Part shown: positions 2 through 8,818 of the stretch, piece by piece
Layout of the letters: each line of letters starts with the position of its first letter
Numbering within the stretch: the stretch's first letter is position 1
Origin: an uncultured Neomegalonema sp.
Lineage (GTDB): Bacteria > Pseudomonadota > Alphaproteobacteria > Rhodobacterales > Rhodobacteraceae
Assembly: GCA_937990185.1 (NCBI GenBank)
Contig: CALKBI010000017.1
Location: 1-64,000, forward strand
DNA: 64,000 bases
Direction of reading: 5' to 3'
Made by a program: the position numbers and the translations under genes
The notes under the pieces: model-generated
Seen by the model: only the letters and a program-made list of their open reading frames with translations
What the model was told of the DNA's origin: nothing
Databases searched by the model: none

Positions 2-1447
2 GTTGGCCTCTCAATGCCGTTCAGTTTTGCCGTAGCGGCACTGATCGAAGGGCGCGTAGACGCGGGATGGGCGCGCTGGGTGCGTCCTTGGGCATTGGCC
101 GCATGGTCCGCTCTTACAATCGGAATCGCGCTCGGCAGCTATTGGGCGTATTACGAACTCGGCTGGGGAGGCTGGTGGTTCTGGGACCCCGTTGAGAACG
201 CCAGCTTTATGCCGTGGCTGGTCGCAACCGCCCTGCTCCACTCTGTTATCGTCGTTGAAAAACGCGGAACATTGCAAAGCTGGACGATCCTCCTTGCGAT
301 TATTGGGTTCTCGTTATCCCTTGTCGGGACGTTTATCGTCCGCTCGGGTATCATTACCAGTGTTCACGCCTTCGCAAACGATCCTGAGCGCGGGGTGTTC
401 ATCTTAGCGATGCTTGGCGTAGCCGTGGGTGGTTCTCTAATCCTATACACATGGCGAGCACCTCAATTACGCAGCGATGCCGTCTTCTCGACCATGAGCC
501 GTGAAAGCGCGCTGGTTCTCAACAACCTGCTTATGAGCGTCTCCTGCGCTGTTGTTTTCATCGGGACGCTGTACCCGTTGATGGTGGAGCTTGCGACGAA
601 CGGTGAAAGCAAGATCAGTGTGGGCGCTCCCTTCTTTGATCTCGCCTTTGCACCGCTCATGGTATTGGTCCTGCTGGTCATGCCAATCGGTACAGCGCTT
701 CCATGGAAGCGAGGGGATCTTCCAAAAGCGATGACCCGGATTTGGCCTGCCGTTTTGCTCGCCTTCTGCGTTGGCACTGTGTTCGCGATGTTGCGTTGGG
801 GCGGACCAATCCTCGCGCCGTTTGCAATCATGTTGGCGTTTTGGGCAATCTTCGGCGTGTTGGCTGACTTGGGAGAGCGGGTAAAACTAGGCCGCGCACC
901 AATCAGCGAAAGTCTGCGCCGTCTGGCTAACCTACCGCGCTCTGTTTGGGGACAAGCCGTCGCGCATATCGGTTTTGGAGCTACGGCCTTTGGCGTAGCC
1001 GCAATCACCGCATGGGCGTCGGAAGACATCCGCACGGCCAATGCAGGCGACATCATACCGCTCTCGACTTACGAAATCCGCTTTGACGGTGTGACCATTG
1101 AGAACGGTCCAAACTTCCGCTCGGATATAGGTCGCTTCACCATTTTTGAGGATGGCGAAGAAGTCGGTAGAACCTCTTCCGAGACGAGGTTTTATCCGGT
1201 GCAAAATGCTTACACGACAGAGGCAGGCATCCGTGCAAGCCTTGTCGAAGATGTTTATGTCTCCCTCGGCGACAAACAAAGCGACGGATCTTGGGCTATT
1301 CGCAGTTACGTGAAGCCTTATGCAAACTGGATATGGCTTGGGGCACTGATCATGACACTCGGCGGTTTGTTGAGCCTTAGTGACCGCCGGCATCGCGTCG
1401 GCGCACCAACACGGGCAAAGCGGCAAAAAGTGGTGGCGGCAGAATGA
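2..1447 (+). CDS. ccmF: Cytochrome c-type biogenesis protein CcmF (5' truncated)
   Basis: Integral membrane component of the System I cytochrome c maturation machinery, which with CcmH forms the haem ligation complex that attaches haem from holo-CcmE to apocytochrome c. The frame is open to the left edge of the window (VGLS precedes the first Met), so roughly the first 170-190 residues of a usual ~650-residue CcmF are missing. The haem-handling WWD segment is visible near the start (GGWWFWDPVENASFMPWL). Many hydrophobic segments follow, then a large periplasmic loop and a final transmembrane helix with a basic tail. The stop overlaps the ccmH start (ATGA), so the two are translationally coupled. 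Identification is secure; only the N-terminus is unseen. Confidence 0.96.
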   Translation, partial: VGLSMPFSFAVAALIEGRVDAGWARWVRPWALAAWSALTIGIALGSYWAYYELGWGGWWFWDPVENASFMPWLVATALLHSVIVVEKRGTLQSWTILLAIIGFSLSLVGTFIVRSGIITSVHAFANDPERGVFILAMLGVAVGGSLILYTWRAPQLRSDAVFSTMSRESALVLNNLLMSVSCAVVFIGTLYPLMVELATNGESKISVGAPFFDLAFAPLMVLVLLVMPIGTALPWKRGDLPKAMTRIWPAVLLAFCVGTVFAMLRWGGPILAPFAIMLAFWAIFGVLADLGERVKLGRAPISESLRRLANLPRSVWGQAVAHIGFGATAFGVAAITAWASEDIRTANAGDIIPLSTYEIRFDGVTIENGPNFRSDIGRFTIFEDGEEVGRTSSETRFYPVQNAYTTEAGIRASLVEDVYVSLGDKQSDGSWAIRSYVKPYANWIWLGALIMTLGGLLSLSDRRHRVGAPTRAKRQKVVAAE

Positions 1448-1917
1448 GGATAATACTCGCCTTCATCGCCCTGCTGATGGCCTTTCCCGCACAAGCGGTA
1501 GAACCGGATGAAATCCTCTCCGATCCGGTTCTAGAATCCCGTGCGCGGGAGCTTTCGAAAGGACTACGCTGTCTCGTTTGCCGCAATCAAAGCATTGACG
1601 ATTCCGATGCGAGTCTCGCCAAAGACCTGCGCGTCGTTGTCAGAGAGCGCCTCGTTGCTGGGGACAGCGATGAAGATGTCATTGAGTTCGTGGTTGATCG
1701 CTACGGCGAATACGTCCTCCTGAAACCTCGGTTCAGCATTGGCAACGCAGCGCTCTATCTCGGGGGGCCGCTCTTGCTGCTCATTGGCGGTTTTGCCTTC
1801 TGGCGGATGACCCGCCAGTCAGAAGTCGCGCATCAAAAAGTAACCGCTGCTGGTGTTACTCCGCTCAGCGATGATGAGCGCCGCAAGCTCGATGCCCTGA
1901 TCGGGAAATCCGACTAA
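1444..1917 (+). CDS. ccmH: Cytochrome c-type biogenesis protein CcmH
   Basis: Membrane-anchored thiol-disulfide protein that keeps the CXXC motif of apocytochromes reduced and presents them to CcmF. At 157 residues it matches the short CcmH/CycL type. A Sec signal peptide covers residues 1-18 (cleavage after AQA). The redox motif LRCLVC places the cysteines at residues 43 and 46. A single transmembrane helix lies at about residues 100-118, followed by a short tail. It starts inside the ccmF stop (ATGA) and its own stop overlaps the next start (TAATG), so three genes are tightly coupled. There is no ccmG/dsbE between ccmF and ccmH, as in the rhizobial cycHJKL arrangement. Confidence 0.95.
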   Translation: MRIILAFIALLMAFPAQAVEPDEILSDPVLESRARELSKGLRCLVCRNQSIDDSDASLAKDLRVVVRERLVAGDSDEDVIEFVVDRYGEYVLLKPRFSIGNAALYLGGPLLLLIGGFAFWRMTRQSEVAHQKVTAAGVTPLSDDERRKLDALIGKSD

Positions 1918-2504
1918 TGCTGCGCGCAGTCAGCGTCATTTCGTTGATGACGCTCGCCGCCGTTACAGATCGCGATGGAGAACTGGAAGCGCCCATCGTT
2001 CTCAACAAAGGCGACGTTATTTGTGTCGGATATGACCGCGAGTCAAACACCTGCATTGTAAAGCAACTCGTCGGCACTGCGGCGGATGACAAAATTACCA
2101 TGCTCGAAGAGATGCAGATTACGAATTTTGGACCACCGCTGAAAATCACGACTCTCTCGACAAGCAAGCGGCAGAATTCCCGATATTGCCTGTCGGAAAA
2201 CAGCATCCGCGCCGTCGTCGTACCAGAGATTCATCATGCTGCGGCATTGCTGACAACGGCAACGATTCAAGGGCTAAATCGCTACGCTCAATCATCCTAT
2301 TGCGTTGAACATCGCGTGTGTAACGACGAGCATGTCGCCATTGCTTATGCGGGCAAAAACCGCTTTCCAGAAGAAGATATGGTCTACACGCTGTTTCCTG
2401 AAAACGACCCTGCGCTTAATACGCTGAGCCTACGCGACATGGAAATAGAACAGCTTGACCAGATCAAAGGCTTCGCCCCGGTATCCTGCCTCCCTGCCGA
2501 ATAA
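1917..2504 (+). CDS. Hypothetical cysteine-containing protein coupled to ccmH
   Basis: A 195-residue protein of no family I recognise. Its ATG overlaps the ccmH stop (TAATG), so it is probably translated as the last gene of the ccm operon. The N-terminus has a short hydrophobic stretch (residues 4-16) that could be a weak signal peptide. Six cysteines are spread through the chain in short contexts such as ICVGY, NTCIV, YCLSE and YCVEH, which suggests disulfides in the periplasm. A role near cytochrome c maturation is only a guess from position. A real gene is likely given the overlap, the consistent frame and the terminator-bounded end. Confidence 0.7.
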   Translation: MLRAVSVISLMTLAAVTDRDGELEAPIVLNKGDVICVGYDRESNTCIVKQLVGTAADDKITMLEEMQITNFGPPLKITTLSTSKRQNSRYCLSENSIRAVVVPEIHHAAALLTTATIQGLNRYAQSSYCVEHRVCNDEHVAIAYAGKNRFPEEDMVYTLFPENDPALNTLSLRDMEIEQLDQIKGFAPVSCLPAE

Positions 2505-2535
2505 AAAAAGGCCCGATCAAATCAATGACCGGGCC
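2503..2535 (-). terminator. Rho-independent terminator of ald
   Basis: Ten-base-pair hairpin with arms 2510-2519 and 2526-2535 (GGCCCGATCA / TGACCGGGCC, one G-U pair), followed on the minus strand by seven Ts (2503-2509). It lies 35 bases after the ald stop. The convergent ccm operon ends next to it and may also be stopped by the hairpin. Confidence 0.85.
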
Positions 2536-2570
2536 ATAAGTCCGCTTTCGCGGGGGAGGAAACTTGTTCG

Positions 2571-3689
2571 TCAGGCTGCGAGCGCGTCCTTCGTCGGTAC
2601 GTAATCGTACCCGAGATCACGCGCCACTGCTTCGTATGTCACCTTACCGTTCCATACATTCAGCCCGTTAGCGAGATGCGCGTCATTGGACAAGGCCGCT
2701 TTCCAGCCGTTATCAGCCAACGCCAACGCATGAGGCAAAGTAACGTTGTTCAATGCGTAGGTAGAGGTGCGTGCGACACCGCCCGGCATGTTTGCGACAC
2801 AGTAATGGACGATATCATCAACCAAGTAAGTTGGCTCAGCATGGGTTGTTGCCTTGGAAGTTTCAAAACAACCGCCTTGGTCAATCGCAACATCCACGAG
2901 AACCGAACCCTTTTTCATCGTGCCGAGCATCGCCCGTGAAACGAGTTTCGGCGCCGCCGCACCGGGGATCAAAACAGCACCGATTACGAGATCCGCTTCA
3001 GCAACACTCTCTTCGAGATTTGCTTTATTGGAAAAACGAGTTTTCGCAGCTGCTTCGAAATGGGTCGACAGTTTTTCGAGGACTTCCGGACTCCGGTCGA
3101 GGATCGTCACATCAGCACCGAGTCCTACAGCCATCTGAGCGGCATTGAACCCAACCACACCGCCACCAATGATGGCAACTTTGCCCGGCATAACACCCGG
3201 TACACCGCCGAGCAGGACACCGCGACCCCCTTGAGCTTTTTCAAGGCAATGCGCACCAGCTTGGATAGACATCCGACCGGCAACCTGACTCATCGGCTTG
3301 AGCAAAGGCAATCCACCACTGCGGTCTGTCACGGTTTCATAAGCAATGCATACAGCGCCAGAATCCACCAAATCTTTAGTTTGTTCAGGGTCGGGTGCAA
3401 GGTGCAGGTAAGTATAGAGAATTTGCCCTTCACGCAGCATCTTGCGTTCGCCCGCTTGAGGTTCCTTGACCTTTACGATCATATCCGCGCGCTCGAAGAT
3501 TTCTGCCGCATCTGACACCATTTCAGCACCAGCAGCGATATAGTCTTCATCCGTAGACCCAATGCCATTACCGGCATTATTCTCGACCACGACTTTATGG
3601 CCGTGATGAACCGTTTCAGCGACACTCTCAGGCGTCATACCAACGCGGTATTCGTGATTTTTGATTTCCTTAGGGATACCGATCAGCAT
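2571..3689 (-). CDS. ald: Alanine dehydrogenase
   Basis: NAD-dependent L-alanine dehydrogenase (EC 1.4.1.1), converting L-alanine to pyruvate and ammonium in the cytoplasm. The 372-residue length is typical. The N-terminal catalytic domain opens with MLIGIPKEIKNHEYRVGMTP, includes the substrate-binding KVKEP segment and the YTYLHLAPD segment with the conserved His. The Rossmann motif GGGVVGFNAA lies in the middle, and the C-terminal part has HYCVANMPGGVARTS. The start is supported by a GAGGA box 8-9 bases upstream. It is divergent from an Lrp-family regulator gene, the usual arrangement for alanine-inducible ald control, and is followed by a strong terminator. Confidence 0.97.
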   Translation of the reverse strand: MLIGIPKEIKNHEYRVGMTPESVAETVHHGHKVVVENNAGNGIGSTDEDYIAAGAEMVSDAAEIFERADMIVKVKEPQAGERKMLREGQILYTYLHLAPDPEQTKDLVDSGAVCIAYETVTDRSGGLPLLKPMSQVAGRMSIQAGAHCLEKAQGGRGVLLGGVPGVMPGKVAIIGGGVVGFNAAQMAVGLGADVTILDRSPEVLEKLSTHFEAAAKTRFSNKANLEESVAEADLVIGAVLIPGAAAPKLVSRAMLGTMKKGSVLVDVAIDQGGCFETSKATTHAEPTYLVDDIVHYCVANMPGGVARTSTYALNNVTLPHALALADNGWKAALSNDAHLANGLNVWNGKVTYEAVARDLGYDYVPTKDALAA

Positions 3690-3827: not shown

Positions 3828-4286
3828 ATGGATTCGATTGATGCAAAGATTCTTACCGTTCTGCAAAGTGATGGCCGCGCTTCCGCCGCTGACCTGAGCG
3901 CGATTGTTAATTTATCTCTTTCAGCGGTGCATCGCAGGATCAAACTTCTGGAGGAGTCGGGTGCGATCAAAGGATACGCCGCAATCCTTGATGCAAAAGC
4001 CATTGGCTACAGTCACGATTTTTTCGTTGAAATAGCTCTGCAATCGCAAAGCGCCGAAACGATGGAAGCCTTTGAGGAGGCCGTCAGGCAGTCTCCCCAT
4101 ATCGTCGAATGTCATCTGCTGACCGGCGCGTTTGATTACCTCATCCGCATCGCCACACGCGGACCTGAAGATTATGAGCGTGTTCACCGCCACGCACTCT
4201 CGGCGCTTCCCGGTGTTATGAGAATGCAATCTAGTTTGGTGCTGAAAACTGTACGACCTTGGGAGGGCTATAGCGTCACCACTTAG
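3828..4286 (+). CDS. Lrp/AsnC-family transcriptional regulator, probable ald activator
   Basis: A 152-residue Lrp/AsnC-type DNA-binding protein. Residues 1-60 form the winged helix-turn-helix (DAKILTVLQSDGRAS, then LSAVHRRIKLLEESGAI) and residues about 70-145 form the RAM ligand-binding domain (HIVECHLLTGAFDYLIRI). It is transcribed away from ald, with an inverted repeat just upstream. By analogy with AldR-type proteins it probably senses alanine or another amino acid and controls ald; this link rests on gene order. It could also be a more global Lrp paralogue. Confidence 0.92.
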   Translation: MDSIDAKILTVLQSDGRASAADLSAIVNLSLSAVHRRIKLLEESGAIKGYAAILDAKAIGYSHDFFVEIALQSQSAETMEAFEEAVRQSPHIVECHLLTGAFDYLIRIATRGPEDYERVHRHALSALPGVMRMQSSLVLKTVRPWEGYSVTT

Positions 4287-4374: not shown

Positions 4375-5253
4375 TTAATCAGCGATAAGCCAATCCAGCA
4401 TCGCATCGACCAAACGGCCTTCACTGGCAACATCGAAAGCTACGAACATTGGATTTGAGTTTGTTTCGAGGAAAACAAGCTCATCACTACCAGCGCGCGT
4501 TTTGAAATCGGCGGCGGTATAGGTCAGCCCAAATCGATCCGTCAGCTCACGCAACCCATTCAACAAATGCTCTGGTGGCTCGACTTCGGAAACTTTCGCA
4601 TCTCCTCCAACGGTTCGATAGTCCAATGCGTCGGCGTCTATTTGATAAGCAAAAAATGACTCGCCCACACGAAAGATTCTAATTTCCGGCGGCACGAGCT
4701 TATCTTGAAAAATATAAGGGCGCGGCAGATAAGGTTCACTGACGCGGCCCAAAGCATCTGCCTCCAACTCGCGGCACATGTCACCGCCCCCGACAGGCTT
4801 ATAAACGACCGGACCTCGCGCTAACGCAGTATCAGCGACCGCGACTGAAGAATGCAAAACAGTATCAGGCACAGCAAGCCCCGCCTCGCGCGCCCAAACC
4901 AGCGCTAGAGGTTTATTCACTGCATCTTTCATAGCAAAGCCACGGTTGAAGAGACGAATGTCGGGATGAGACCACAGCCATCCGTCAATCATGATCTTCC
5001 AACTGCGCGCATCATCGCGGTCAATCTGCTTATTCGTTTGAAGAAAACGGAACACGTCTTGGCGGACAAAAGCACCCTTCGGCTTAATGGCGGTCCCATC
5101 TATCGATAGCAATCCCGACGCAACATCCCATTCCAATAAAAGCTGCCCACCTTCACGGTGAAGTAGTGTCGTAACCGGCAGGTCACGCGCCTCTGCACGA
5201 TCTATCATGCGTTTGAGTTGCGGGTCTGCGTCTCCTCCTGCGATCAGCAACAT
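4375..5253 (-). CDS. ATP-grasp ligase, probable graspetide macrocyclase
   Basis: A 292-residue ATP-grasp enzyme of the RimK/MvdC-D type. In the graspetide family these enzymes phosphorylate Glu/Asp side chains of a precursor and join them to Thr/Ser (ester) or Lys (amide). Visible signatures: NKPLALVWAREAGLAVPDT (about residues 113-131), the ATP-binding lysine in VVYKP (Lys152), EIRIFRVG (190-197), the DYR triplet (211-213) and the metal/ATP-binding FLETNSNP (261-268, with Glu263, Asn265, Asn267). Length and order fit microviridin- or plesiocin-type ligases. An AGGAG box precedes the start. It lies 104 bases downstream of a lipoprotein gene with two TTxxxxEE motifs, the class-2 graspetide core signature. 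A RimK-like ligase with another substrate remains possible. Confidence 0.8.
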   Translation of the reverse strand: MLLIAGGDADPQLKRMIDRAEARDLPVTTLLHREGGQLLLEWDVASGLLSIDGTAIKPKGAFVRQDVFRFLQTNKQIDRDDARSWKIMIDGWLWSHPDIRLFNRGFAMKDAVNKPLALVWAREAGLAVPDTVLHSSVAVADTALARGPVVYKPVGGGDMCRELEADALGRVSEPYLPRPYIFQDKLVPPEIRIFRVGESFFAYQIDADALDYRTVGGDAKVSEVEPPEHLLNGLRELTDRFGLTYTAADFKTRAGSDELVFLETNSNPMFVAFDVASEGRLVDAMLDWLIAD

Positions 5254-5357
5254 CAGAGATACACTCCTGCAACAAAGGTAAGAGAATTGGTTGATGAAAA
5301 CCGGTAGATCATCACTTCTGAAAGCGCATATCCATGCGGGATCACCGGCATGGCACT

Positions 5358-5795
5358 CTAACCTTCTTCACCAATCGCAAGTGTCGTAGCTGATCCTGTT
5401 TCCGGCGGAATATAAATCCGCTCATATTCACCGGCAACTTCACCAATCGGAGGTGGAGCCAAAGGATCGAACGATGTCTGCCCTGCACTTGCATTCGGCT
5501 GAATGGGAATTAGGCCAGTTCCATCTTCTTCGCCAATGGCTTTAGTCGTAACAAAAACACTTTGAGGCTGTTGCAAAGTATTCACTTCTTGGGGCGGTTG
5601 CACCGTCTCTACACGAGGAGGTTGGACGGTATTTACTGGAGGAATGACAGCAGGCTGCGGCGCAGCAACGGGCCTTTGCACACGGTCGACATCAGAAACC
5701 GCTCGGGGAGAACATCCACTTACTACACTCAATCCAACAAGTGCGGTTACAGACGCAGCCATTCGGCTGCGATTTGATGGAGTGCCTGACTGCAT
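5358..5795 (-). CDS. Proline-rich lipoprotein with two TTxAIGEE motifs (candidate graspetide precursor)
   Basis: A 145-residue protein from the ATG at 5795, which has an AGGGA box about 8 bases upstream; an in-frame ATG at 5849 is less likely. Residues 12-27 form a signal h-region ending in the lipobox VSGC (Cys28); Ser follows Cys, so outer-membrane sorting is expected. A linker at about 40-80 is rich in Pro and Gln, with near-repeats VNTVQPP, VETVQPP and VNTLQQP. TTKAIGEE lies at 83-90 and TTLAIGEE at 137-144, one residue before the end. TTxxxxEE is the crosslinked core of plesiocin-type graspetides, and an ATP-grasp ligase gene follows. The motifs are directly seen; modification is inferred. 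A signal peptide with lipobox on such a precursor is unusual. Confidence 0.72.
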   Translation of the reverse strand: MQSGTPSNRSRMAASVTALVGLSVVSGCSPRAVSDVDRVQRPVAAPQPAVIPPVNTVQPPRVETVQPPQEVNTLQQPQSVFVTTKAIGEEDGTGLIPIQPNASAGQTSFDPLAPPPIGEVAGEYERIYIPPETGSATTLAIGEEG

Positions 5796-5861: not shown

Positions 5862-6764
5862 TCAAGGCATTTGAGCACCTTCGCGATTTAGAACAATGCT
5901 GTAAATGCTGGTTGTCGCTGTGATAAACAGCTTATGTTTTGCCCGACCGCCAAAACAAACATTAGATACTAATTCCGGCACAAAGATTTTCCCCATCAAA
6001 ACACCATGGGGACTAATGCAATGCACACCATCGGCGGCAGAGCTCCAAATATTGCCCTCATTATCGCACCGAAACCCGTCAGAATGTCCGGGTGATACCG
6101 TGTAAAAATCCCGACCACCGGTCAGGGTGTTATCTGATGAAACGTCAAAAACACGAATACGCTTGTTTGCATTCGGATCAAAAGCATGGCCACTTTCCGC
6201 AATATAGAGCAAACTTTCATCCGGCGAGAACGCCAACCCATTCGGACAATCAAAGTCGGTCGCGACCGCAGCAATGCCCCCCATGTTAGGATCAACGCAG
6301 TAAACTTGGCAGGAAAGCTCCTGATCGGATTTAAAGCCTTCGTAATTTGATTTGATACCATAGTGCGGATCAGTGAACCAAACCGTACCATCAGATTTCA
6401 CCACAACATCATTCGGAGAATTAAACCGCTTACCTTCAAAGTGGTCCGCGATGATAGTGATCGACCCATCATATTCCGTCCTCGTCACACGGCGCGTTCC
6501 ATGCTCGCAGGATATCAGCCGCCCCTGCCTGTCGCGTGTATGGCCGTTCGAATAGTTTGAAGGCTCCCGATAAACTGAAATGCCGTTACCCTCAGTCCAG
6601 CGCATAATGCGATTATTCGGAATGTCTGAGAACAGCAGACAATTCGCATCGCCAAACCACGTCGGCCCTTCAACCCAATCAAACCCCGTAGCCAATTGTT
6701 TGACCGGCGCATTCTTCAAAACGTAACTGCGAAATGCAGGATCAATAATTTCGAAAAAAGACAT
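5862..6764 (-). CDS. SMP-30/gluconolactonase/LRE family protein
   Basis: A 300-residue six-bladed beta-propeller protein of the SMP-30/gluconolactonase family, metal-dependent hydrolases of sugar lactones and related esters. Family signatures: VEGPTWF near residue 31 (first metal ligand Glu), SPNDVVV (Asn ligand), CPNGLAFSPDE and HSDGFRCDNEGNIWSS (the last Asp ligand). No signal peptide is seen, so it is probably cytoplasmic. It is the first gene of a possible three-gene minus-strand unit, 66 bases before the TTxAIGEE lipoprotein. Whether it acts on a sugar lactone or is linked to the ester-forming neighbours is unknown; ordinary sugar metabolism is the default reading. Confidence 0.88.
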   Translation of the reverse strand: MSFFEIIDPAFRSYVLKNAPVKQLATGFDWVEGPTWFGDANCLLFSDIPNNRIMRWTEGNGISVYREPSNYSNGHTRDRQGRLISCEHGTRRVTRTEYDGSITIIADHFEGKRFNSPNDVVVKSDGTVWFTDPHYGIKSNYEGFKSDQELSCQVYCVDPNMGGIAAVATDFDCPNGLAFSPDESLLYIAESGHAFDPNANKRIRVFDVSSDNTLTGGRDFYTVSPGHSDGFRCDNEGNIWSSAADGVHCISPHGVLMGKIFVPELVSNVCFGGRAKHKLFITATTSIYSIVLNREGAQMP

Positions 6765-6978
6765 TCAATGCTCTTTCACTTGGGAGATTCTTTTTTAAGT
6801 CCAACGCAGCATTCGGGATGCTCATGCTTACATCAAGCGAAAGATTGCATGGAATTTGATGCAAATCCCGCATTGAATTTTACGCCCCTCTATCTGCTTT
6901 CAATTCTGATTTAACCTTTAGAAGCCTCTACTAATCTCAAGACATCTTTGGTTTTTTCAGACAACGGGGCGAGGTATC

Positions 6979-7339: not shown

Positions 7340-8818
7340 TCAGCGCTTCATGTTTGCGATGGCACTCGCAATAATATCGACACCATCAGAAATCTTCTCC
7401 GATGGGATGGAAGAATACGCGAGACGCATATAATTTTTCGGCGGCCTTTGACCGCTCAAACTCTCGGGGGCAAAAAACGGCGCGCCCGGTTCAATCAAAA
7501 CGCCAAGCTCACGCAAGCGCGATCCCAAAATTGCCGTATCAATATTTTCCGGCGCGGCGATCCAAAAACTTGCACCGCCAAATTGAGGCGCACGCGCGCC
7601 GCTCAGCCCCACCCTTTCAAGGGCAGCTTGCATTGCGATACGGCGTTCTGAAAAAGCCGACCGCAATCGCCGGATCAACGCATCATGATGACCGAGTGCA
7701 AGGAAGTACGCAGCCGTGCGTTGCGTGTGTCCGGGCAAGTGCCTCAAGACCAAAGACCGCAAACCCCTTGCCTCCCGGATAACAGGATCAGGGGCCACTA
7801 AATAGCCCAGCCGCAATCCCGGAAATAAAGACTTCGAAAAGCTGCCAACATAAATAACGCGCCCCGACGGATCGAGGGACTTCAAGGCCGGTGCAGGACG
7901 TTGTAAAAAGCCCATCTCAAAATCATAATCATCTTCAACAATGACAAAATCATACTTTTCCGCCGCCTCTAATAAGGCCCGCCGCCGGGCAAGAGGCATT
8001 GTCGCCGTTGTCGGCGCGTGGTGACTTGGCGTGACGAACACGACGTCAGCATCGGCGAGGCGATCATCCACCGGCATTCCATGATCATCTACGGCTAATG
8101 TCGTGACATCCGCACCGAGCCGCAGCAACGTTTCACGTAAATCAGGGTAATTCGGGTCTTCAATGACCACTTTTGCACCGCGCGTACAAAGCATTTGAGC
8201 AATCAAAAACAGCGCATTCTGTGCACCGAGCGTAACAAGAATTTGCTCGGAACGCGCCATGACACCCCGCCGAGGCAATGACCTTGCACGAATATAATCG
8301 ACCAATAACGGGTCATCCGCCGCCCCTTTATCGCCCGCCATAGCCTCAAAGTTTCGAAGTCCCAACGCCTGACGCGCGCAATCGCGCCAATCAGAATGGA
8401 TAAAGAGCGATGGATCAGCTTGACCGTAAACAAATGGGAATTTGTACTCGCGCCAGTTCAAGGGCTTTTCGACCCGTAGCCCATCGGCATAGCTCATTCC
8501 GATCCGCGAACCCCAATCGACGACGCTATCGTCTTCGGATGGATCAATATGCCCGGTTGTCCCGGCAGGCGCTTGCATACCGACGAAATAACCGCTTCGG
8601 TCTCGTCCCTCGAGGTATCCGTCGGCCACAAGTGCCTGATACGCCAATGTCACTGTATTTCTGGAGACCCCAAGTTGTGCCGCCATTCCCCGTGTTGAAG
8701 GCACGGCTTCTCCGGGCATCAATCGGCGCGATAAGATAGCTGAAACCAGCATTTCTCTGACTTGCGCTTGCAAGCCAACCCCGTCGAGAGGGTTAAGATG
8801 AAATAAAGCTTCCTTCAT
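7340..8818 (-). CDS. MocR/GabR-type PLP-dependent transcriptional regulator
   Basis: A 492-residue fusion of a GntR-type winged helix (about residues 10-80, PSTRGMAAQLGVSRNTVTLAYQAL) to a class I aminotransferase-like domain. The PLP-lysine context is SFSKSLFPGLRLGY. Such regulators sense amino compounds or PLP. The gene is divergent from an omega-amino acid:pyruvate aminotransferase, so it probably controls that gene in response to beta-alanine, taurine or a similar amine. The two copies of TCCAAT just upstream of its start are candidate operator elements. PdxR-like control of PLP synthesis is an alternative, but no pdx gene is nearby. Confidence 0.92.
   Translation of the reverse strand: MKEALFHLNPLDGVGLQAQVREMLVSAILSRRLMPGEAVPSTRGMAAQLGVSRNTVTLAYQALVADGYLEGRDRSGYFVGMQAPAGTTGHIDPSEDDSVVDWGSRIGMSYADGLRVEKPLNWREYKFPFVYGQADPSLFIHSDWRDCARQALGLRNFEAMAGDKGAADDPLLVDYIRARSLPRRGVMARSEQILVTLGAQNALFLIAQMLCTRGAKVVIEDPNYPDLRETLLRLGADVTTLAVDDHGMPVDDRLADADVVFVTPSHHAPTTATMPLARRRALLEAAEKYDFVIVEDDYDFEMGFLQRPAPALKSLDPSGRVIYVGSFSKSLFPGLRLGYLVAPDPVIREARGLRSLVLRHLPGHTQRTAAYFLALGHHDALIRRLRSAFSERRIAMQAALERVGLSGARAPQFGGASFWIAAPENIDTAILGSRLRELGVLIEPGAPFFAPESLSGQRPPKNYMRLAYSSIPSEKISDGVDIIASAIANMKR

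Follow-up and report, generated by a model that had tools for sequence, protein, structure and literature searches.

Genes for a protein with repeated TTxxxxEE motifs and for a stand-alone ATP-grasp enzyme lie side by side at this locus. Does the pair make a graspetide, and if so, is the product a free peptide or a protein that the cell keeps? TTxxxxEE is the core motif of group 2 graspetides such as plesiocin (PsnA/PsnB), and the first-pass annotation had proposed a plesiocin-like precursor and its macrocyclase. The window (the whole stretch of DNA analysed here, 64,000 nt) is G000:C17:1-64000, part of a 3.5 Mb draft genome, G000, which we searched genome-wide by DNA pattern and profile. We compared it with a genus sample of 14 Neomegalonema-like genomes, G000 included. 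As criteria for a graspetide system we used an ATP-grasp ligase of the graspetide-synthetase branch, a repeated core with conserved donor (Thr/Ser/Lys) and acceptor (Glu/Asp) residues, and a precursor beside the ligase; for a bacterial lipoprotein, an N-terminal basic and hydrophobic segment ending in a lipobox cysteine. Judged from its genes, this sludge bacterium appears to use one enzyme to tie side-chain loops, themselves predicted, into several of its own proteins and not into a free peptide.

All nine named loci with a close ligase come from MAGs (eight labelled uncultured Neomegalonema, one a Rhodobacteraceae MAG), so calls of gene absence and of linkage depend on draft assemblies. The 14 genomes are a single genus, and co-occurrence among them therefore does not represent 14 independent events. 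Loci L007-L014 were equated with genomes of the genus scan by inference from identical contig numbers and coordinates.

The closest solved relative of the ligase is the plesiocin synthetase PsnB

4375..5253, minus strand: ATP-grasp ligase of 292 aa, a PsnB-like predicted graspetide synthetase by sequence, fold, and motifs

The gene after the precursor on the same strand had been read as a stand-alone ATP-grasp ligase with the motif set EIRI...DYR...FLETNxNP. The open reading frame at 4375-5253 (-) bears this out, with EIRI, DYR, and FLETNSNP all present. Searching PDB sequences with the ligase gave three matches up to E 10, the best being PsnB (7drm, E 1.6e-13), the plesiocin synthetase; AMdnB had an E value of 0.14. 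An AlphaFold2 model built from 12 window and locus sequences (mean pLDDT 86) also has PsnB as its top Foldseek match (7drp, E 6.8e-19, TM 0.78), followed in order by PruB, AMdnB, a Chryseobacterium ligase, and MdnC/MdnB. Other ATP-grasp enzymes first appear at rank 26 (ArgX), 34 (LysX), 39 (Ddl), and 42 (RimK). Nine residues (K152, Q183, R192, D211, R213, D249, K251, E263, and N265) do not vary across an alignment of 12 ligases that includes the window's, and manual reading of the PsnB alignment places the same residue types at these positions.

Among curated profiles, TIGR04187 (ATP-grasp ribosomal peptide maturase) is the best of six NCBIfam matches to the ligase (E 1.3e-22), with a score of 80 bits where the cut-off is 350. 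Matches to MvdC, MvdD, and RimK-type models are weaker, all six fall below cut-off, and a Pfam scan of the ligase returned no family up to E 1. With PsnB best by both sequence and fold, the ligase criterion is met. A RimK-like or D-Ala-D-Ala-ligase identity, which the first-pass annotation had named as a finding that would refute it, is ruled out, graspetide ligases being closer on both counts.

The ligase is the single match in its own genome, and each of ten genomes searched has one full match. G296 has one partial extra match (G296:C208:7287-7541, the C-terminal 85 positions) that may be a pseudogene or an assembly artefact; this aside, no second ligase was found beside unlinked precursors in these ten genomes. 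By a simple counting method, dN/dS is 0.053 for the ligase against G054 (dS is saturated against L007), and for the precursor 0.118 against G054 and 0.239 against L017. By these ratios, purifying selection seems to act on both genes in the comparison with G054.

The precursor is a predicted lipoprotein

5358..5795, minus strand: precursor, a predicted lipoprotein with two TTxAIGEE cores (145 aa ORF; homologues in 14/14 genus genomes)
5715..5795, minus strand: predicted lipoprotein signal peptide, residues 1-27, lipobox VSGC, from lipobox comparison of 14 homologues
5712..5714, minus strand: Cys28, predicted lipidation site and sole cysteine of the precursor
5526..5549, minus strand: core 1, TTKAIGEE, residues 83-90, a strict pattern match
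5364..5387, minus strand: core 2, TTLAIGEE, residues 137-144, one residue before the C-terminus, a strict pattern match

The 145-residue product and its two motifs at residues 83-90 and 137-144, the starting point of the earlier annotation, are confirmed. When the residues of the precursor were shuffled, 760 of 200,000 sequences had TT....EE at least once and a single one had it two or more times; TT.AIGEE did not arise in 100,000.

The lipobox signature, like the extra cores elsewhere in the genome, goes beyond that annotation. In all 14 homologues, the one from the window's own genome among them, a lipobox cysteine at position 25-30 follows a hydrophobic stretch (start codons were chosen manually). 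The lipobox variants are VSGC, ASGC, ISGC, LAAC, LSAC, VAAC, LAGC, LSGC, and LGAC, that of L016 (ASGC) being weaker. Mean hydropathy over the 15 residues preceding the Cys is 1.17-2.17; the n-region has 0-3 basic residues (0 in L023), and one acidic residue precedes the Cys in three precursors. The residue directly after the Cys is always S, A, or Q, and never D. Beyond the lipobox there is no cysteine in the homologues except one in L022, downstream of a run of N and in a frame that cannot be relied on; contig ends truncate L073 and L075. The lipoprotein criterion is met in 14/14, a call that rests on lipobox and hydropathy, without a SignalP-type predictor.

Complete precursors are 141-336 aa long, again with manually chosen starts. 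The 14 precursors carry 2-10 strict cores each, distributed along the chain in the multi-core proteins. The leader motif Phhx(1,2)h is found in the first 30 residues of none of the 14 lipoprotein precursors, the only protein type examined for it. According to the accessible part of PMC8939145, this motif occurs in about half of graspetide precursors and is hence not strictly defining.

Conservation and distribution of the core motif

A DNA pattern for TTx[STPA][FLIMV]GEE gave 123 matches over 14/14 genus genomes, and a reversed-pattern control gave 1. In a family sample of 295 genomes, two of which are genus members, the pattern matched in 20 genomes: five times in each genus member, twice in G056, once in G118, and exactly once in each of 16 others. 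The reversed control matched 20 times in the same sample. G056 and G118 both carry the ligase of this branch beside multi-core precursors, and none of the 291 family genomes without a detected ligase of this type has more than one core match. A chance origin of the motif is ruled out by the pattern controls and the residue shuffles.

TTxxxxEE had also been predicted to be conserved in homologues, as it proves to be. We picked 33 ORFs with at least one strict core and collected 132 GEE-anchored windows, in which the G, E, and E positions are fixed by the anchor. T1 is present in 120 and T2 in 125, which meets the donor and acceptor criterion; L3 is found in 104, A4 in 121, I/L/V5 in 124, and D after EE in 105. 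Cores at all chain positions follow one consensus. At the third position of the core Thr and Gly codons all four bases occur, so it is the protein sequence that is kept. The uniformity of the core loop, we infer, speaks for a structural role or a single fixed target and against diversified inhibitors caught up in an arms race. What we observe is a repeated TTxxxxEE motif together with one full ligase in each genome; the connectivity of the links is undetermined.

The same cores occur in two other protein types

Placed by contig and position, every one of the 123 genus matches falls at a locus of one of three protein types. Besides the lipoprotein, a second, large core protein, unlinked to the ligase, is present in 14/14 genus genomes, its open frame spanning 378-634 codons, or 791 in one genome. 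Its cores lie near the N-terminus, and in 10/14 a strict core falls within 10 residues of the C-terminus. In the window's genome, this protein is G000:C6:51238-52824, with three cores; its TTG start was chosen manually as the first ATG, GTG, or TTG of the frame. By inspection, the large proteins have no evident signal peptide or lipobox-type start. Their highest 15-residue hydropathy before the first core (0.28-1.51) overlaps the 1.17-2.17 of the lipoproteins, so that a signal is not strictly excluded. No Pfam model matched in three examples, and no NCBIfam model in two.

The third type, with cores followed by RTX repeats, is found in 5/14 genus genomes, with PF00353 above cut-off in all five. 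At these loci (L136-L140), TTLAIGEE-type cores stand N-terminal of the repeats, and four of the five proteins have a GPIPVEPDGGIGDGAGPIP-like module in common with the lipoproteins. Counted in the form PVEPDGGIGDG, the module occurs in 11/14 lipoproteins, 4/5 RTX-type proteins, and 0/14 large proteins. As a candidate for a common leader it was rejected: being absent from the large proteins, it is not a general recognition element, and the lipoproteins lack Phhx(1,2)h. Given that three unlike substrate types have little but the core in common, recognition by the ligase may rest on the core and not on a leader.

Separately, at L014, a protein encoded at 5876-6970 (-), directly after an unlinked ligase, has eight matched RTX stretches (PF00353, E 6.5e-45). 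The strict core has no match on this contig (C211 of G976, taken as the same genome).

Taken together, the 123 matches in the genus against 1 for the control, the limit of one match in genomes without the ligase, and the unlinked core proteins suggest that one ligase probably serves dispersed surface or secreted proteins.

Linkage of precursor and ligase

3828..4286, plus strand: Lrp/AsnC-type regulator, beside the ligase in several relatives (Pfam and synteny)
7340..8818, minus strand: GntR-plus-aminotransferase gene, beside the precursor in relatives (PF00392, PF00155; synteny)

Precursor and ligase both lie on the minus strand, with the ligase downstream across a gap of 104 nt. A consensus scan for promoters and terminators found no terminator-like site in this gap, but its match counts did not exceed those of shuffles. 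No peptidase or transporter gene adjoining the pair in the window was seen by eye or by Pfam on the direct neighbours. The GntR-plus-aminotransferase gene, which we take to be MocR-type, marks the precursor site; it and the Lrp/AsnC-type regulator are both probably outside the system.

The expectation that the two genes co-occur in relatives holds only in part. Both are present in 11/14 genus genomes, but they are adjacent in just 4 of these 11 (G000, G054, G982, and G983, with ~470 nt between them in G982). The criterion of a precursor beside its ligase is met in the window and in this 4/11; it is not met in the remaining 7/11, where ligase and precursor lie on different contigs with other genes around each. 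No ligase was found in G977, G979, or G984 (68, 91, and 78% complete), though substrates are present. The G977 contig ends inside the precursor, a break that we infer to fall just where a linked ligase would follow. At L007, a 138-codon open frame (~1340-1753, +) lies between precursor and ligase, with no counterpart in the 104-nt gap of the window.

In the unlinked genomes, the MocR-type gene adjoins the precursor in 7/7, and the ligase keeps its Lrp and alanine-dehydrogenase neighbours in 3/7. In the window, L006, and L007, these two neighbour sets flank one single cluster. The ligases of the seven unlinked genomes form a clade at 99/99 in our second tree, which left out L003 and L046-L050 (long branches or outgroup) and added the G983 ligase. 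They are unresolved in the first tree, which lacked L005 and L043-L045, whose ligase ORF the search pattern had not picked up. Because more distant ligases are mostly linked to precursors, a single cluster that split once is the simplest history.

Ligase relatives outside the genus

Ligase matches at E 1e-15 or better were found in 12 further genomes of a 389-genome order sample and in 3 further of a 384-genome class sample; each sample includes the window's own genome, and some matches belong to another ligase branch. Nine of ten inspected ligases of this branch outside the genus (L003, L004, L036-L042, and L048) adjoin a multi-core precursor; L038-L040, which make up a third of these nine, come from a single genus. 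No precursor is visible beside the ligase at L042, a more distant one. The N-terminal parts of these precursors differ between loci: L041 has almost none, and L048 has a weak Nif11-like leader (E 0.0025, below cut-off). By eye, none is lipoprotein-like, the start of L003 lying off its contig. A region of roughly 110 residues before the cores is seemingly common to L004 and L036-L040, again by eye, and neither Pfam nor NCBIfam has a match to that of L036, the only one scanned. KTxxxxEE-like cores are found in L037 and part of L004.

We excluded L005 (G283), L043-L047, L049, and L050 as relatives of the system; they belong to another branch, or look so, with different repeats or no visible precursor. 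L046, L047, L049, and L050 split from the remaining ligases at 100/100 in the first tree. At L005 (G283:C11, ~1423-3598, -), a subtilase ORF (PF00082, E 3.2e-18) has C-terminal repeats such as GTPVVLDRGGTP and is directly followed by an ATP-grasp ORF of the other branch; the subtilase ORF resembles a fusion of a protease with a multi-core precursor. At L043 and L044 (G397 and G521, ~2421-3534, -), proteins that contain repeated RPTSIIDDRGPTN-type units adjoin ATP-grasp ORFs, and the N-terminal part of the L044 protein matches Trypsin_2 (PF13365, E 2.8e-9).

A proposed mechanism and its alternatives

Our main reading is graspetide-type side-chain cyclization by one PsnB-like ligase with a lipoprotein substrate and probably further, unlinked substrates. 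We give it a probability of about 0.72, with esters, export, and function inferred and no mass data. The graspetide interpretation of the pair itself, as first proposed, is well supported by a ligase closest to PsnB and a motif conserved in homologues, the esters remaining an inference.

Graspetide synthetases phosphorylate a carboxylate, which a nucleophile then attacks (PMC13097080, from the portion available). Here, the cytosolic ligase would use ATP to activate the core Glu for attack by the core Thr, and two omega-esters (Thr to Glu) would turn each TTxAIGEE core into a small bicyclic hairpin. Sec would then export the window's precursor, which would receive its lipid at Cys28, lose its signal peptide to signal peptidase II, and stay anchored in the envelope; each of these steps and their order are inferred. 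S, A, or Q after the Cys in every homologue points to the outer membrane as the probable anchoring site. The same ligase would probably modify G000:C6:51238-52824 and, in relatives, the RTX-repeat proteins.

As for function, serine proteases are potently inhibited by plesiocin and by microviridins, and the potency of plesiocin rises with more cyclized motifs (PMC13097080, as far as its accessible text goes). The part of PMC8939145 at hand calls every graspetide characterized by 2022 a protease inhibitor. On these grounds, a multi-core lipoprotein could be a tethered multivalent inhibitor. A tethered multivalent hairpin array would likely act either as a serine-protease inhibitor or as a protease-resistant surface coat; by analogy, tethered inhibition is our best guess.

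A wider generalization is possible, though we would not yet call it probable: that graspetide chemistry in this genus is not natural-product biosynthesis but modifies a dispersed set of proteins that the cell itself displays or secretes. One vertically inherited ligase would recognize TTxAIGEE without a common leader and equip three protein types encoded at separate sites, the lipoprotein of the outer membrane, the large protein, and the RTX-type secreted proteins, with ester-locked hairpins. Several points count against the proposed system. A protein cross-linked in the cytosol must still cross SecYEG, the ligase is far below curated NCBIfam cut-offs, Phhx(1,2)h is missing, three genomes with substrates lack a detected ligase, and beside the L042 ligase no precursor is visible.

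The locus could instead be an ordinary plesiocin-like cluster, in which the lipoprotein-like N-terminus is a mere leader and the core is excised and released as a soluble secreted inhibitor. The adjacency of the genes in 4/11 ligase-bearing genomes would fit, as would the GG in the first 30 residues of 9/14 precursors and the classical linked multi-core precursors of more distant relatives. Yet the lipobox cysteine after its hydrophobic stretch is kept in 14/14, cores are spread along the chain in multi-core precursors, no peptidase or transporter gene was seen next to the window's pair, and two other unlinked protein types bear the same cores. On balance, we consider release of a free peptide unlikely.

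We give somewhat less credence still to the idea that the cores are uncyclized, TTxAIGEE being a binding or sorting motif of surface proteins while the ligase acts elsewhere, for example by adding an amino acid or tag to a C-terminal GEEG. The window and L016, L018, L019, L020, L023, and L061 do end in ..GEEG, 10/14 large proteins have a core within 10 residues of the end, and the fold is related to that of ATP-grasp enzymes such as ArgX, LysX, and RimK; there is no direct chemistry to settle the matter. Against it, one consensus describes cores at all positions, sequence and fold both place the enzyme nearer to graspetide ligases, above all PsnB, than to RimK or LysX, and the donor-before-acceptor layout of Thr and Glu fits plesiocin. 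That the motif is merely a structural, metal-binding, or low-complexity repeat, tied to the ligase by accident of shared ancestry, seems to us very improbable. All 14 genomes do come from one genus, not from independent events, and one substrate type has calcium-binding RTX repeats, but outside the genus, in other genera of the family and in a second family of the class, the ligase branch is likewise paired with multi-core precursors, whose N-terminal parts differ.

Side-chain cyclization of the cell's own proteins thus remains the reading that we prefer. If it is true, graspetide ligases act in trans on unlinked, full-size cellular proteins, and mining limited to the ligase neighbourhood, as with RODEO in the accessible part of PMC13097080, would miss substrates. 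The passage of ester-locked hairpins through the Sec translocon and their role at the cell surface would become testable, and a ligase that may need no leader would be useful for introducing cross-links into proteins.

Comparison with known systems

Our literature search on Neomegalonema, on ATP-grasp or microviridin systems with a signal peptide or lipoprotein, and on leader-independent or orphan cases found no such system among the matches listed; subscription papers and supplements were mostly outside its scope, and prior publication is not excluded. For graspetides with lipoproteins, PMC8939145 was the sole graspetide paper among the matches listed, and in its available text the lipoproteins are neighbours. 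These are the cluster 23 loci, which resemble ours in encoding a predicted lipoprotein near a graspetide-type ligase; there the lipoproteins are suggested to be enzymatic and not precursors, whereas here the lipoprotein is the precursor. For branches 7 and 8, the same portion raises the possibility of precursors encoded at other genomic sites, with none shown.

Groups 15, 34, and 35, in what is available of PMC13097080, have long precursors like those here, with repeated linkage motifs in 34 and 35. They were found by RODEO near the ligase, whereas ours are unlinked in seven genomes. The accessible text makes no mention of lipoproteins or secretion, and no unlinked second substrate was found in it. 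ThfB is described as leader-dependent in the part of PMC13003496 available, in contrast to the possible core recognition by the window's ligase. The multi-core microviridin system AMdnA/AMdnC is similar in that one ligase works on several cores per chain (PMC7823629, accessible part). It differs from ours in core and in ligase branch (AMdnB, E 0.14). Its product is a free peptide.

The closest likeness is to plesiocin, with tandem repeats that have two ester links each (PMC12291112, in the portion available). Both systems have a single stand-alone ATP-grasp ligase and repeated TTxxxxEE cores, and PsnB is the closest solved structure; unlike plesiocin, the precursor here is a predicted lipoprotein of 141-336 aa with spaced cores, the ligase may be unlinked, and cores occur in other proteins too. 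As far as the genomes alone can tell, the system appears to be a graspetide variant whose novel parts would be the lipoprotein precursor, the missing linkage, and the additional substrates.
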